A stretch of 53,916 nucleotides of DNA from Candidatus Gugararchaeum adminiculabundum (GTDB lineage Archaea > Micrarchaeota > Micrarchaeia > Burarchaeales > Gugararchaeaceae), in assembly GCA_902384795.1 (NCBI GenBank), contig CABMDC010000016.1, positions 1 to 53,916 on the forward strand. The letters are read 5' to 3'. The translations under genes and the position numbers were made by a program. The notes under the pieces are model-generated. The model was not told the DNA's origin and searched no databases. It saw only the letters and a program-made list of their open reading frames with translations. Positions 1,563 through 35,437 of the stretch are shown one piece after another (positions within the stretch are counted from its first letter, which is position 1; the number at the start of each line of letters is the position of its first letter).

Positions 1563-1616
1563 GTTTTCTTTCTCTCCATTCGGGGTCTCTTTCTTTTTTA
1601 AAGAAAGAGAGGCTGA
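1563..1616 (-). repeat. 54-bp intercistronic repeat, copy A (perfect match to copy B)
   Basis: The minus-strand sequence is identical over 54 bp to the plus-strand sequence at 32891-32944. It starts directly after the TGA (1619-1617) of array gene 5 with TCAGCC. It then has a hairpin with 10-bp arms (CTCTTTCTTT and AAAGAAAGAG), then CCCCGAATGGAGAGAAAG, and runs into an A/G-rich leader ahead of the ATG at 1499. Confidence 0.95.
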
Positions 1617-21455: not shown

Positions 21456-22949
21456 ATGGCAGAAGCAAGAAAGGAAAACGAACAGCCCTTGTTTGTCACC
21501 TCTGCCGGACTTCCCCTGTTCGAAGGGGAGGTAAAGGGCAAGCAGTTTGTGATGTTCAGGGATGAGCACCACAATTTGCGGATCGGAAAAATTCAGAGCG
21601 TCGATCTCGCCACCGGGAAAGCGATAGTGAAAGTCAACCTTGGCGGAGGCGCGCTCAAGGATTTGCTCCGCGGCTTCAGGAAAACCAGGAAGATGGAGAT
21701 AGACTTAAACAGCATAACCGGGGTCGGAGTTACAAAAACCGATGCAACCAAACCCATCCCGATGAATGCCAAAATAGAGAAGGTCGAGCCCAGGATAGAA
21801 AAAGCGGAATCTGCGCGCTACCCAGAGCTTATGGAAAACCTGAACCCTGCGGAAAAGGATGCGTTCAGGAGATTCCTTGGCAAAGCGGACTATTACTACC
21901 GAATGCCCAGGGAACTCGCCGCCCAGTTCGAGGATTGGGAGAAAACGCTGAAGGCAGGCAGGTATCCGGAATTTGCCGGGGCATGGGAGGCCTTCAAAAA
22001 AACATATGAATACCAAAAGGCGCGGGACCATATCCGCGAATACAAAAAGTTCCGGGTGAAGGAGGGGGTTTCGGACAGGATAACCGCTTTCACTGCGCGC
22101 CATATAACAAAGGACGAGGATGTCTACAGGGAAACCGCGGGCAGCAAAAGGATACACTTGGAAGTGGACCGCATTGACCCCGAAAAGGCCGGCCAGTATG
22201 CAAGAAAATACAACGAGCTGGTTTCGGACATTGTTTCTGTGCTGAGGGACGTGCCCAAGGGGGATATGACAGAGGAGAATTTCATAGTGCTTGTCTGGGG
22301 AGTGATAAACTCCAATCTGAACATAGTCTATGGAACAAACCAGTATGGATTTTTGAACCAGTCAATCAGGACCGGAAAATTTGACTGCGACACTTCGGCA
22401 TTCCTAGTGTATGACATTGCAAAGCGCCTGGGAGTGGAGGTGCAGATGGTGGCGACAGTCGCACATGCGCTCCTGAAAACAAGGAAATATTATTTTGAGA
22501 CCACAAACGGGAGATTTGGGGACATTGAAAAACTCGGAAAAATATATAAGCGGTATATTGTGCTGAGCGATGAGCAGGTGCAGTCAATAACCTATACCTC
22601 CAGAGGCAATTACTACAATGATGCAAAAAAGGACGAGTTAGCTATGCAAGACTTTGCCAAGGCAGTGCAGATGGTTCCGGAATCTTCTAGCTACCATAAT
22701 AACCTGGGAGTCGCTTACGACAATAGGGACAACGTGAAAAAAAGTAATAACCGGGGAGTCGCGTATAGTAATACGGGCAACGTGAAAAAAGCGCTTGAGG
22801 AATACGACCTTGCCATAAAATTGGATCCGGAGAATGCGATAGTGTATAAAAACAGGGCGGAAGTTTATTCGAGATTGGGAGAACCGGAACTTGTAAAAAA
22901 AGATCTCGAAATGTATTACAAGCTGAAAGGAACAAAACCGGCTAACTAA
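21456..22949 (+). CDS. Transglutaminase-like cysteine-protease domain with C-terminal TPR repeats
   Basis: 497 aa from the ATG at 21456; a TTG one codon earlier is unlikely. Residues 1-95 form a small beta-rich domain. Residues about 300-352 carry a transglutaminase-like triad pattern: KFDCDTSAFLVYDIAKRLG with Cys311, VAHALL with His337 and YFETTNG near 346-352. The C-terminus has TPR units, including a half unit created by a 48-bp tandem duplication. There is no signal peptide or TM, so it is cytoplasmic. A TATA-like ATTATATATAT about 35 nt upstream fits the start. Substrate unknown; TPRs suggest a protein partner. Confidence 0.78.
   Translation: MAEARKENEQPLFVTSAGLPLFEGEVKGKQFVMFRDEHHNLRIGKIQSVDLATGKAIVKVNLGGGALKDLLRGFRKTRKMEIDLNSITGVGVTKTDATKPIPMNAKIEKVEPRIEKAESARYPELMENLNPAEKDAFRRFLGKADYYYRMPRELAAQFEDWEKTLKAGRYPEFAGAWEAFKKTYEYQKARDHIREYKKFRVKEGVSDRITAFTARHITKDEDVYRETAGSKRIHLEVDRIDPEKAGQYARKYNELVSDIVSVLRDVPKGDMTEENFIVLVWGVINSNLNIVYGTNQYGFLNQSIRTGKFDCDTSAFLVYDIAKRLGVEVQMVATVAHALLKTRKYYFETTNGRFGDIEKLGKIYKRYIVLSDEQVQSITYTSRGNYYNDAKKDELAMQDFAKAVQMVPESSSYHNNLGVAYDNRDNVKKSNNRGVAYSNTGNVKKALEEYDLAIKLDPENAIVYKNRAEVYSRLGEPELVKKDLEMYYKLKGTKPAN
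22698..22793 (+). repeat. 48-bp tandem duplication within TPR coding region
   Basis: Bases 22698-22745 and 22746-22793 align without gaps at 37 of 48 positions. The unit encodes 16 residues (NN.GVAY.N..NVKK), half a TPR motif, so the copy number changes the TPR solenoid by half a repeat without breaking the frame. Confidence 0.85.
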
Positions 22950-32156: not shown

Positions 32157-32888
32157 ATGGCAACCGACAAAACTAAAGTAGAGAAACAACCTGACTTGGA
32201 CCGGGTGCCGAGCGGCATCCCGGGCCTGGACGAAACCATTGGCGGGGGGTTCGAGAGGAACAGCTCCATACTTCTTGCAGGCGACGCGGGCTCGGGCAAA
32301 ACCACTTTTGCAATGCAGTTCATTTACAAGGGCGCGCAGGACTACGATGAGCCGGGTGTTTACATCACGTTCGAGGAGCCGCGCGAGGCGCTGCTGAGGC
32401 ACATGAGCGAGTATAACTGGAACCTGGAGAAACTTGAAAGGGCGGGAAAGATTGCGATTCTGCAGTACAAGCCCCACGAGGTGCAGAAGCTTCTCGAAGA
32501 GGGCGGCGGGACAGTTTATGATTTGGTGAACTCAATAGGCGCGAAAAGGCTGGCGATTGACTCGCTCACAAGCTTCGGGCTTTTGTTCGAAAGCCAATAC
32601 CAGACAAGGGAAAACGAGCTCGAGCTTCTCGAGCTCCTGAGGAACTGGAAAACCACGAGCATGCTTGTTTCAGAGGTTTCGGCGCTGGATGAGCGAAGGG
32701 CGTCGCTGGACGGAGGGGGCGCGGAATTCCTGACCGACAGCGTGCTGCTGCTCTACCACTCGCACAAGGAAAGCGAGCGGGTCAGGGCGTTCGAAGTGCT
32801 CAAGATGAGGGGCTCGCAGCACACGGAAAGGGTGTTTCCGCTGGAGTTCACTGCGGGCGAGGGAATCAGCATCCGCTCAAAAATGTAA
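32157..32888 (+). CDS. Single-domain KaiC-like (RecA-superfamily) ATPase
   Basis: 243 aa. It opens with the KaiC/RadA pattern DRVPSGIPGLDETIGGGFERNSS, then Walker A GDAGSGKTT (residues 42-50), EEPREAL as candidate catalytic glutamates, and RLAIDSLTSF as Walker B. The end (VLKMRGSQHTERVFPLEFTAGEGISI) matches KaiC-domain proteins. Archaeal relatives include the archaellum protein ArlH/FlaH. Its position as first gene ahead of five pilin-like genes and the pilus motor suggests a regulator or assembly partner for the pilus. The next gene follows after the 54-bp repeat. Confidence 0.88.
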   Translation: MATDKTKVEKQPDLDRVPSGIPGLDETIGGGFERNSSILLAGDAGSGKTTFAMQFIYKGAQDYDEPGVYITFEEPREALLRHMSEYNWNLEKLERAGKIAILQYKPHEVQKLLEEGGGTVYDLVNSIGAKRLAIDSLTSFGLLFESQYQTRENELELLELLRNWKTTSMLVSEVSALDERRASLDGGGAEFLTDSVLLLYHSHKESERVRAFEVLKMRGSQHTERVFPLEFTAGEGISIRSKM

Positions 32889-32890
32889 GT

Positions 32891-32944
32891 TCAGCCTCTC
32901 TTTCTTTAAAAAAGAAAGAGACCCCGAATGGAGAGAAAGAAAAC
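32891..32944 (+). repeat. 54-bp intercistronic repeat, copy B
   Basis: Identical over 54 bp to the minus-strand sequence at 1563-1616. It begins two bases after the TAA of the KaiC-like gene, contains the 10-bp-arm hairpin (CTCTTTCTTT / AAAGAAAGAG), and ends in CCCCGAATGGAGAGAAAG before the pilin-like gene. Confidence 0.95.
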
Positions 32945-34366: not shown

Positions 34367-34806
34367 TTGATGATGCGGGAAAAATGAAAGCGAAAAGCAA
34401 ACCTGTGGGAAAGATGCAAATGAAAAAATACAAAGGCCAAGTGACAGCCGAGTTCCTTATCATACTGATCGCCCTGCTCGGAGTGCTTCTTTTCGCCTAC
34501 GGGGCCTCGTACAATTTCAAAAAGGCGGAGCTGTCTTTTGAGAACATGCTGCAAGGGAAGAGCATCGCCTACCGGGTTGCGCGCACGGTGAACGAGGTCT
34601 ATTTCGCAGGGGACGGGACCGAAGCGAAAGTTTTCATAGACAGCGGCTATACGCTGGAAGCGACGCCGAATATCCTGGTCGTGGAAAAGGAGAAGAGGAT
34701 AATCGGGGATTTCCCGTTGGCCACCATGAACGTGACCGTTATGACGACTTCTTTTGGAAAATACGCGAGCGTGAGGAACATTGATGGAGTGGTGTATATC
34801 TCATGA
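34363..34806 (+). CDS. Class III pilin-like protein
   Basis: 147 aa if started at the ATG overlapping the previous stop (ATGA); ATGs at 34384, 34414 and 34420 would give shorter, more typical leaders. The signal KYKGQVTAEFLIILIALLG has the class III G|Q..(A)E pattern. The long N-terminal helix (SYNFKKAELSFENMLQGKSIAYRVARTVNEVYF) parallels that of the previous gene, including the NEVYFAGDG/DQVYLQGSG turn, so the two are related. A small beta tail completes it. Probable minor pilin of the operon. Confidence 0.85.
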   Translation: MIDDAGKMKAKSKPVGKMQMKKYKGQVTAEFLIILIALLGVLLFAYGASYNFKKAELSFENMLQGKSIAYRVARTVNEVYFAGDGTEAKVFIDSGYTLEATPNILVVEKEKRIIGDFPLATMNVTVMTTSFGKYASVRNIDGVVYIS

Positions 34807-35339
34807 AAAGGAAACGCGGAGCGCAGGGAACTGAAAATAAATCCCGCAAAGGCCAGTTCTTTTCGCTGGATGTGCTTTTCGGAGCCACCATTTTCCTAGT
34901 GGTGCTGCTCACTGCGCTCACGACCTGGAACAGCGCGTTCCAGAAAACGGCAAAGCTTGAGGAGCAGAGGGAAACAAATGAGATCGCCTGGGTGGCCGCG
35001 CAGCAGCTGGTCCAGGGGCCCGGGATTCCCGCGCTTTGGGAAAATGAGACAGACCTGGAACGGATTGGCAAGATCGGGCTGGCTACGACCTACGGCGAGT
35101 TTGACGAGGGAAAAATATTGAGGCTTGAGGAGCTGAACGCCAGCCATGAGGATTATGATGAGGCGAAGCAGAAACTGGGCGCGGGGAAGTTTGAGCTGTA
35201 TGTTTCGTTTGAAAGCAATCTCACGAGGATACACGAGTTCGGGGCGCCGCCCCCGGAGACAAGCCCGTCCATAGTTGTCACAAGAATGGGAAGCCTGAAC
35301 GGGGAGCCGGTGAAAATGCACGTGGTGGTCTGGAAGTAA
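34803..35339 (+). CDS. Pilin-like protein
   Basis: 178 aa. ATG overlaps the upstream TGA by 4 bp. The n-region is long and basic (MKRKRGAQGTENKSRKGQ). It is followed by FFSLDVLFGATIFLVVLL, so the motif is KGQFFSLD, with Asp at the place of the usual Glu. A helix follows (AFQKTAKLEEQRETNEIAWVAAQQLVQG). The C-terminal part is mixed and has no cysteines. Its stop is followed by the shortened intercistronic element at 35342. Confidence 0.8.
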   Translation: MKRKRGAQGTENKSRKGQFFSLDVLFGATIFLVVLLTALTTWNSAFQKTAKLEEQRETNEIAWVAAQQLVQGPGIPALWENETDLERIGKIGLATTYGEFDEGKILRLEELNASHEDYDEAKQKLGAGKFELYVSFESNLTRIHEFGAPPPETSPSIVVTRMGSLNGEPVKMHVVVWK

Positions 35340-35341
35340 AA

Positions 35342-35366
35342 TCAGCCCCGAATGGAGAAAGAAGAA
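35342..35366 (+). repeat. Shortened copy (D) of the intercistronic element
   Basis: TCAGCCCCGAATGGAGA at 35342-35358 follows the TAA (35337-35339) after two bases. It equals the 54-bp repeat with the hairpin segment removed. An A/G-rich leader of about 70 nt then leads to the next gene. Confidence 0.85.
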
Positions 35367-35437
35367 ATGGATGAAGGGAAAAATGAGGAAAAAAGAAAAA
35401 TGGAGAATAGATGAAGAGAAGGAAAGGAGAAATGAAA

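Follow-up and report, generated by a model that had tools for sequence, protein, structure and literature searches.

A probable lineage-specific family of short dispersed repeats with a predicted intrastrand-triplex architecture in Candidatus Gugararchaeum adminiculabundum

Introduction

In Escherichia coli, the potential intrastrand triplex (PIT) elements, also called BoxC or TM_ECO, were originally described by Hoyne and Maher (cited in PMC4666352), and an absence of promoter or terminator activity is reported for them (PMC4666352, citing Maher). The loop limit of Hoyne is 0-10 nt. The loop limit of ITxF is 1-6 nt, triplex motifs stall polymerase in vitro, and RNA does not form purine-motif triplexes (PMC4666352). 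Here we describe a repeat family of similar layout, F1, found on contig CABMDC010000016.1 of the archaeon Candidatus Gugararchaeum adminiculabundum, together with a sister family, F2. The whole contig (53,916 nt) is referred to below as the window, and the genome that was searched comprises 1.47 Mb on 26 contigs and encodes Spt5, archaeal riboflavin synthase, archaeal ATP synthase B and RLI. Unsupervised scans covered up to 558 kb, and the remainder of the genome was searched by pattern only.

Results

Three co-varying arms in the long copies of the repeat

A long copy of F1 spans ~50-55 bp and consists, in order, of TCAGCC, a pyrimidine arm, a loop, a purine arm, the linker CCCCGAATGG and a second purine arm, which is the mirror image, and not the complement, of the first. 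The two long copies of the window, A and B, and its two short copies are laid out as follows.

1611..1616, minus strand: TCAGCC, the invariant 5' motif of copy A, directly after the TGA stop of open reading frame (ORF) 1617-2543
1600..1610, minus strand: pyrimidine arm of copy A, TCTCTTTCTTT
1597-1599, minus strand: loop AAA of copy A
1586..1596, minus strand: purine arm of copy A, AAAGAAAGAGA, which pairs with the pyrimidine arm (Watson-Crick)
1576..1585, minus strand: invariant linker of copy A, CCCCGAATGG
1565..1575, minus strand: third arm of copy A, AGAGAAAGAAA, mirroring the purine arm
32891..32896, plus strand: TCAGCC of copy B, 2 nt past the TAA stop of the KaiC-family ORF 32157-32888
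32897..32907, plus strand: pyrimidine arm of copy B, TCTCTTTCTTT
32911..32921, plus strand: purine arm of copy B, AAAGAAAGAGA
32922..32931, plus strand: linker of copy B, CCCCGAATGG
32932..32942, plus strand: mirror third arm of copy B, AGAGAAAGAAA
386..413, minus strand: short copy TCGGCCCCGAATGGAGAGAAAGAAAAAC, without the hairpin, linker and third arm present, directly after the stop of ORF 414-1499
35342..35369, plus strand: short copy TCAGCCCCGAATGGAGAAAGAAGAAATG, without the hairpin, linker and third arm present, 2 nt past the stop of ORF 34803-35339

The identity of copies A and B over 54 bp, reported in a preliminary description of this DNA, was reproduced (1616-1563, minus, and 32891-32944, plus; 54/54 nt, the following base being G in one and T in the other), and the two shortened copies that it listed are present at 413-386 (minus) and 35342-35369 (plus), where CCCCGAATGGAGA and the purine tail are retained and the "CC + hairpin" portion is gone. 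The mirror third arm, at least seven further copies and the flanking repeats found at four copies were absent from that account.

The pattern CCCCGAATGGAGA matched nine times in the genome, compared with zero times for its reversed control; therefore, chance can be excluded for the repeat. Relaxed patterns added two copies, one with different arms (C1:82010) and one short copy with one C fewer (C7:23348), and the exact and relaxed searches together yielded at least 11 copies, seven long and four short. Their spread is uneven, as 4 of the 11 lie in the 54-kb window contig. Two further sites that match CCCCGAATGG, C4:12604 and C19:9596, were rejected as elements.

Long copies: window 1616 (minus), window 32891, C1:81979, C1:171411, C12:62307, C20:11761, C20:51628
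Short copies: window 413 (minus), window 35342, C1:10664 (minus), C7:23352 (minus)

The arms match three ways without a mismatch over 10-12 nt in all seven long copies, and the most interesting point is that all three co-vary: five distinct arm types occur, each perfectly matched (for example, purine arms AAAGAAGAAAGA, AAAAGAGAAAG and AAAGAAAAGAGA with mirror tails AGAAAGAAGAAA, GAAAGAGAAAA and AGAGAAAAGAAA, respectively). The true pairing of arms with tails scored 50/50 across the five types, the top of all 120 permutations, and a perfect 10-nt mirror has a probability of 0.008-0.02 per arm type, given composition. Reading the tail as a direct repeat was rejected, as the alignments were always worse than those of the mirror. 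Furthermore, a scan of 172 kb for pyrimidine, purine and mirror arms that was blind to the core returned exactly the seven long copies and nothing in Markov shuffles, and a 558-kb scan (k=7) returned the seven long copies, two copies of the sister family and five unrelated matches, again with none in shuffles. Because no copying process yields mirror images, the match would have to be maintained by structure or by recognition.

A pyrimidine arm, its reverse-complementary purine arm and a mirror purine arm, each of at least 8 nt on one strand, are the arms of a class II PIT, and all seven long copies carry them; the first loop is ~3 nt, and the 10-nt linker is within the limit of Hoyne but beyond that of ITxF. 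In the intrastrand triplex scheme of PMC4666352, the long copies, as read from their sequence, fall into class II when the coding strand is considered and into the pyrimidine class when its complement is. DNA folding gives the expected hairpin at -7 to -11 kcal/mol, and an RNA hairpin of about -12 to -17 kcal/mol is predicted in most copies. T is absent from every tail, even though a purine-motif third strand would permit T.A-T, and this weakly favours a pyrimidine-motif form or H-DNA in the duplex.

Comparison with known repeat families

Both F1 and the BoxC/PIT elements have the one-strand class II order (pyrimidine arm, loop, purine arm, loop, mirror purine arm), and both occur as many near-identical intergenic copies with a patchy distribution and deletion derivatives. 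However, the BoxC arms are G/C-rich, nearly invariant and often carry one mismatch, whereas those of F1 are A-rich and fall into five co-varying variants, none of them mismatched. The second BoxC loop is 3 nt, and the corresponding F1 linker is an invariant 10-mer, outside the 1-6 nt limit of PMC4666352. BoxC shows no strand bias relative to genes, whereas every F1 copy has the orientation of its host gene, and F1 has flanking direct repeats at four copies, unlike BoxC. Membership in the BoxC/TM_ECO sequence family (CCCTCNCCC N3-6 GGGNGAGGG N3 GGGNGAGGG) was rejected, the F1 copies being A/G-rich with a CCCCGAATGG linker.

REP/BIME and other palindromic repeats, as well as miniature inverted-repeat transposable elements (MITEs), are, like F1, short non-coding hairpin repeats that are dispersed between genes and presumably non-autonomous, and the long flank duplication at F1 copies resembles a target duplication. 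F1 differs from them in its third mirror arm, its variable flanking repeats (24-72 bp) and its lack of the terminal inverted repeats of a resident insertion sequence (IS). F1 may also be likened to the Rickettsia palindromic elements in its in-frame insertion in ORFs (two F1 copies); unlike them, most F1 copies lie outside ORFs and have the fold of a potential triplex. The Rickettsia elements are mentioned in PMC10969869.

Insertion footprints

At 4 of the 11 copies, the start or flank of the gene downstream is present as a direct repeat on either side of the element (P<=0.002 each against random sites).

C12:62340: flanking repeat of 72 bp, riboflavin synthase start
C20:51661: flanking repeat of about 40 bp, atpD start
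C1:82010: flanking repeat of 24 nt ungapped, 92%, inside scpB
C7:23348: flanking repeat of low complexity

The gap between atpB and atpD is 148 nt in the Gugararchaeum genome; six relatives, which belong to other families within the order, have 8-14 nt there. Together with the flanking repeats, this difference supports the conclusion that the F1 element inserts; junction direct repeats are present, and the atpB-atpD junction of these relatives is of the empty type. Three sites carry non-repetitive duplications; their flanks have diverged and their arms are without mismatch. This would fit gene conversion, maintenance of the element in place, or a duplication that had been imperfect when it arose. 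The genome has a lone Y1 transposase, an IS200-type TnpA (C1:140020-140364) whose locus ends in hairpins; this enzyme was rejected as the mobiliser, the ends of its locus being unrelated to the F1 repeat, and, with this locus as the one examined, a MITE of a resident transposon was likewise set aside, given these differing ends and flanking repeats that vary from 24 to 72 bp.

A separate case was observed at ridA, the first 59 nt of which are duplicated (88% identical) around an insertion of ~180 bp (C7:22990-23265). The pattern of gene-start duplication is the same as that of F1 and the insert is different: it is composed of other small repeats, which are also found at C12:202131, C2:18151, C5:13092 and C5:11461. 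The atpB-atpD junction of one relative also holds an insert (about 168 nt), different from that of F1 and rich in hairpins.

Placement and neighbouring genes

Read in the direction of transcription, the four window copies start 0, 2, 0 and 2 nt past a stop codon, in line with the 0-3 nt of the preliminary description, and genome-wide 7 of the 11 copies start 0-6 nt past a same-strand stop (P about 1e-8 to 2e-8, even when the comparison is with random positions outside ORFs). All 11 copies are sense to the host gene. The compactness of the genome, in which the co-directional intergenic gap has a median of 33 nt, explains the stop-adjacency in part. The copies fall into two groups, seven that are stop-adjacent and lack a clear flanking repeat, and four that are not stop-adjacent and have one.

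It had also been proposed that the copies lead into leaders of envelope genes and tie a membrane array to a pilus operon. Neither proposal was borne out, as at least 11 copies lie across the genome at genes of all sorts (ATP synthase, ScpA/B, riboflavin, Alba, glutamate dehydrogenase (GDH) and Spt5 among them), and an envelope-gene regulon is ruled out by these mixed neighbours. Two copies lie between convergent genes, with no leader downstream; two are in frame within ORFs, in the N-terminal region of scpB and in a beta-helix protein on contig C7; and several are within operons (scpA-scpB, atpB-atpD, ribB-ribC).

Neighbours of the copies between convergent genes: PQQ propeller/Spt5; GDH
Other neighbours: KaiC-type ATPase and pilin-like operon; unassigned membrane ORFs; ScpA/ScpB; DUF460/Alba; DHBP synthase/riboflavin synthase (ribB/ribC); atpB/atpD; beta-helix protein

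Elsewhere in the window, a TPR-type ORF contains a 48-bp direct tandem repeat (82%) at 22697-22790.

Short copies

The short form equals the long form minus the hairpin and one CC. Because the tails of the short copies correspond to arm types found in long copies, deletion of the hairpin between flanking CC repeats would be the simpler direction of change. The A-rich leaders at 327-395 and 1515-1571, immediately 3' of two copies, consist of imperfect tandem repeats with periods of 34 and 22, possibly produced by slippage beside the element.

A sister family at tRNA genes

F2 has the class II layout TCCTTTTCTTT-loop-AAAGAAAAGG-CTGGTCGAAYCC-AAAAGAAAAA and six copies, two of them on contig C5.

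F2 copies: C4:71859 (minus), C5:11418, C5:13048, C1:104983, C20:25523 (minus), C12:78536

Three copies lie directly 3' of tRNA genes (tRNA-Pro, tRNA-Ala and tRNA-Val), and one apparently interrupts a tRNA-Gly-like gene that was not called by ARAGORN. The F2 arms are nearly constant, so the family contributes no co-variation. F1 has CC after the purine arm and GG before the tail, and in F2 these are swapped (GG, CC); this single difference would fit a closed turn between both purine arms.

Distribution outside the genome

A search of 300 other genomes of the same class, a sample without members of the genus or family, yielded neither F1 nor F2. Across 84,980 GTDB species, the F1 pattern gave one match only, in a Christensenellaceae coding sequence, which was judged to be chance, and it gave nothing in IMG/VR viral contigs, plasmids or phages. 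Exact 13-mer matches in 2 of 60 relatives were dismissed as chance, one being in the TFB coding sequence and the other at an unrelated site, and an Rfam search returned tRNA matches only, with no curated covariance model fitting the repeat. The best reading is that F1 is lineage-specific.

Discussion

Taken together, we consider it probable (roughly 0.7) that the repeat is a lineage-specific family of short dispersed elements with class II PIT architecture. The preliminary description had left a choice between an intercistronic control element and a spreading mobile sequence; the spreading is supported by the flanking repeats at 4 of 11 copies and the atpB/atpD empty-site comparison, while the envelope leaders and the tie between loci are not. 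The element would spread by a non-autonomous route, through insertions that duplicate 24-72 bp of flanking DNA, and would persist where an insertion is harmless, either just past the end of a gene or where the duplication re-creates a gene start. Its strand may fold into a hairpin with the mirror arm lodged in the major groove, as R.R-Y in the coding strand, T.A-T/C+.G-C in its complement or H-DNA in the duplex, and such a fold, if it matters for copying or maintaining the element, would account for the three-way match. Short copies would result when the hairpin is lost between the CC repeats on either side of it, and effects on host transcripts would be secondary.

Several points weigh against this explanation. 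The triplex is a prediction from sequence, and because the third arm is A-rich, its coding-strand form would be dominated by weak A.A-T triplets. Four short copies persist without a hairpin; therefore, a triplex is not needed at every site. The seven stop-adjacent copies lack a clear flanking repeat, the genomes compared include no member of the same genus or family, so that insertion polymorphism is not observable, and a mobilising enzyme was not identified, the IS200-type locus having been examined and other transposases not searched.

An improbable alternative is a host-selected 3'-end element: at the RNA level, the hairpin and the pyrimidine tract immediately past the stop codon would serve as a transcript 3' end, terminator, stability hairpin or intercistronic valve. 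The 7 of 11 copies at 0-6 nt past stops, the sense orientation of 11 of 11, the sister family after three tRNA 3' ends, the RNA hairpin (about -12 to -17 kcal/mol) that most copies are predicted to form and the arms and core left intact where the neighbouring duplication diverged are all consistent with it. However, the hairpin is missing from the four short copies, termination would be harmful at the two copies in ORFs and at those in the scpA-scpB, atpB-atpD and ribB-ribC operons, and the repeat is absent from 300 same-class genomes. Moreover, an RNA hairpin would make no use of the mirror arm, RNA does not form purine-motif triplexes (PMC4666352), and the E. coli PIT elements lack promoter or terminator activity in the work of Maher, so far as it is cited in PMC4666352.

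That only the hairpin and core matter, as in an ordinary REP- or MITE-like repeat, with the mirror tail a by-product of A/G-rich sequence, is less probable still. The leaders of this genome are A/G rich and a hairpin with a conserved core is enough for a REP-like element, but the arm-specific mirror match, with 0 mismatches in seven copies, beats every permutation and the composition shuffles, the tail aligns worse as a direct repeat, and the shuffled control held no random hairpins bearing mirror tails. Least probable, and very unlikely, is a chromosomal signal (a segregation, replication-barrier or uptake-type motif) that recombination would have spread and the host retained: the invariant CCCCGAATGG, the strict arm matching and the polymerase stalling by triplex motifs in vitro (PMC4666352) would suit such a signal, but a mere 11 copies, four of them in 54 kb, are few and uneven, and the flanking direct repeats indicate insertion events.

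Within the favoured explanation of a dispersed element with PIT architecture, we tentatively propose a mobile element identified by a DNA triple helix, a doubtful but possible case in which the copying or maintenance machinery would recognise the triplex and not the sequence, leaving the arms free to change jointly, with sister families for the ends of protein genes and of tRNAs. The issue addressed here is whether prokaryotic PITs are ever selected as triplexes. In the E. coli family, sequence and structure are inseparable because the arms are nearly invariant; in F1 the arm sequence varies while the three-way match stays constant, which is the comparative signature sought for structural selection, and its arm types are natural variants for a direct test of triplex selection. 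F1 is also a case of a PIT-like repeat with insertion footprints, in the form of flanking duplications, in an archaeon.
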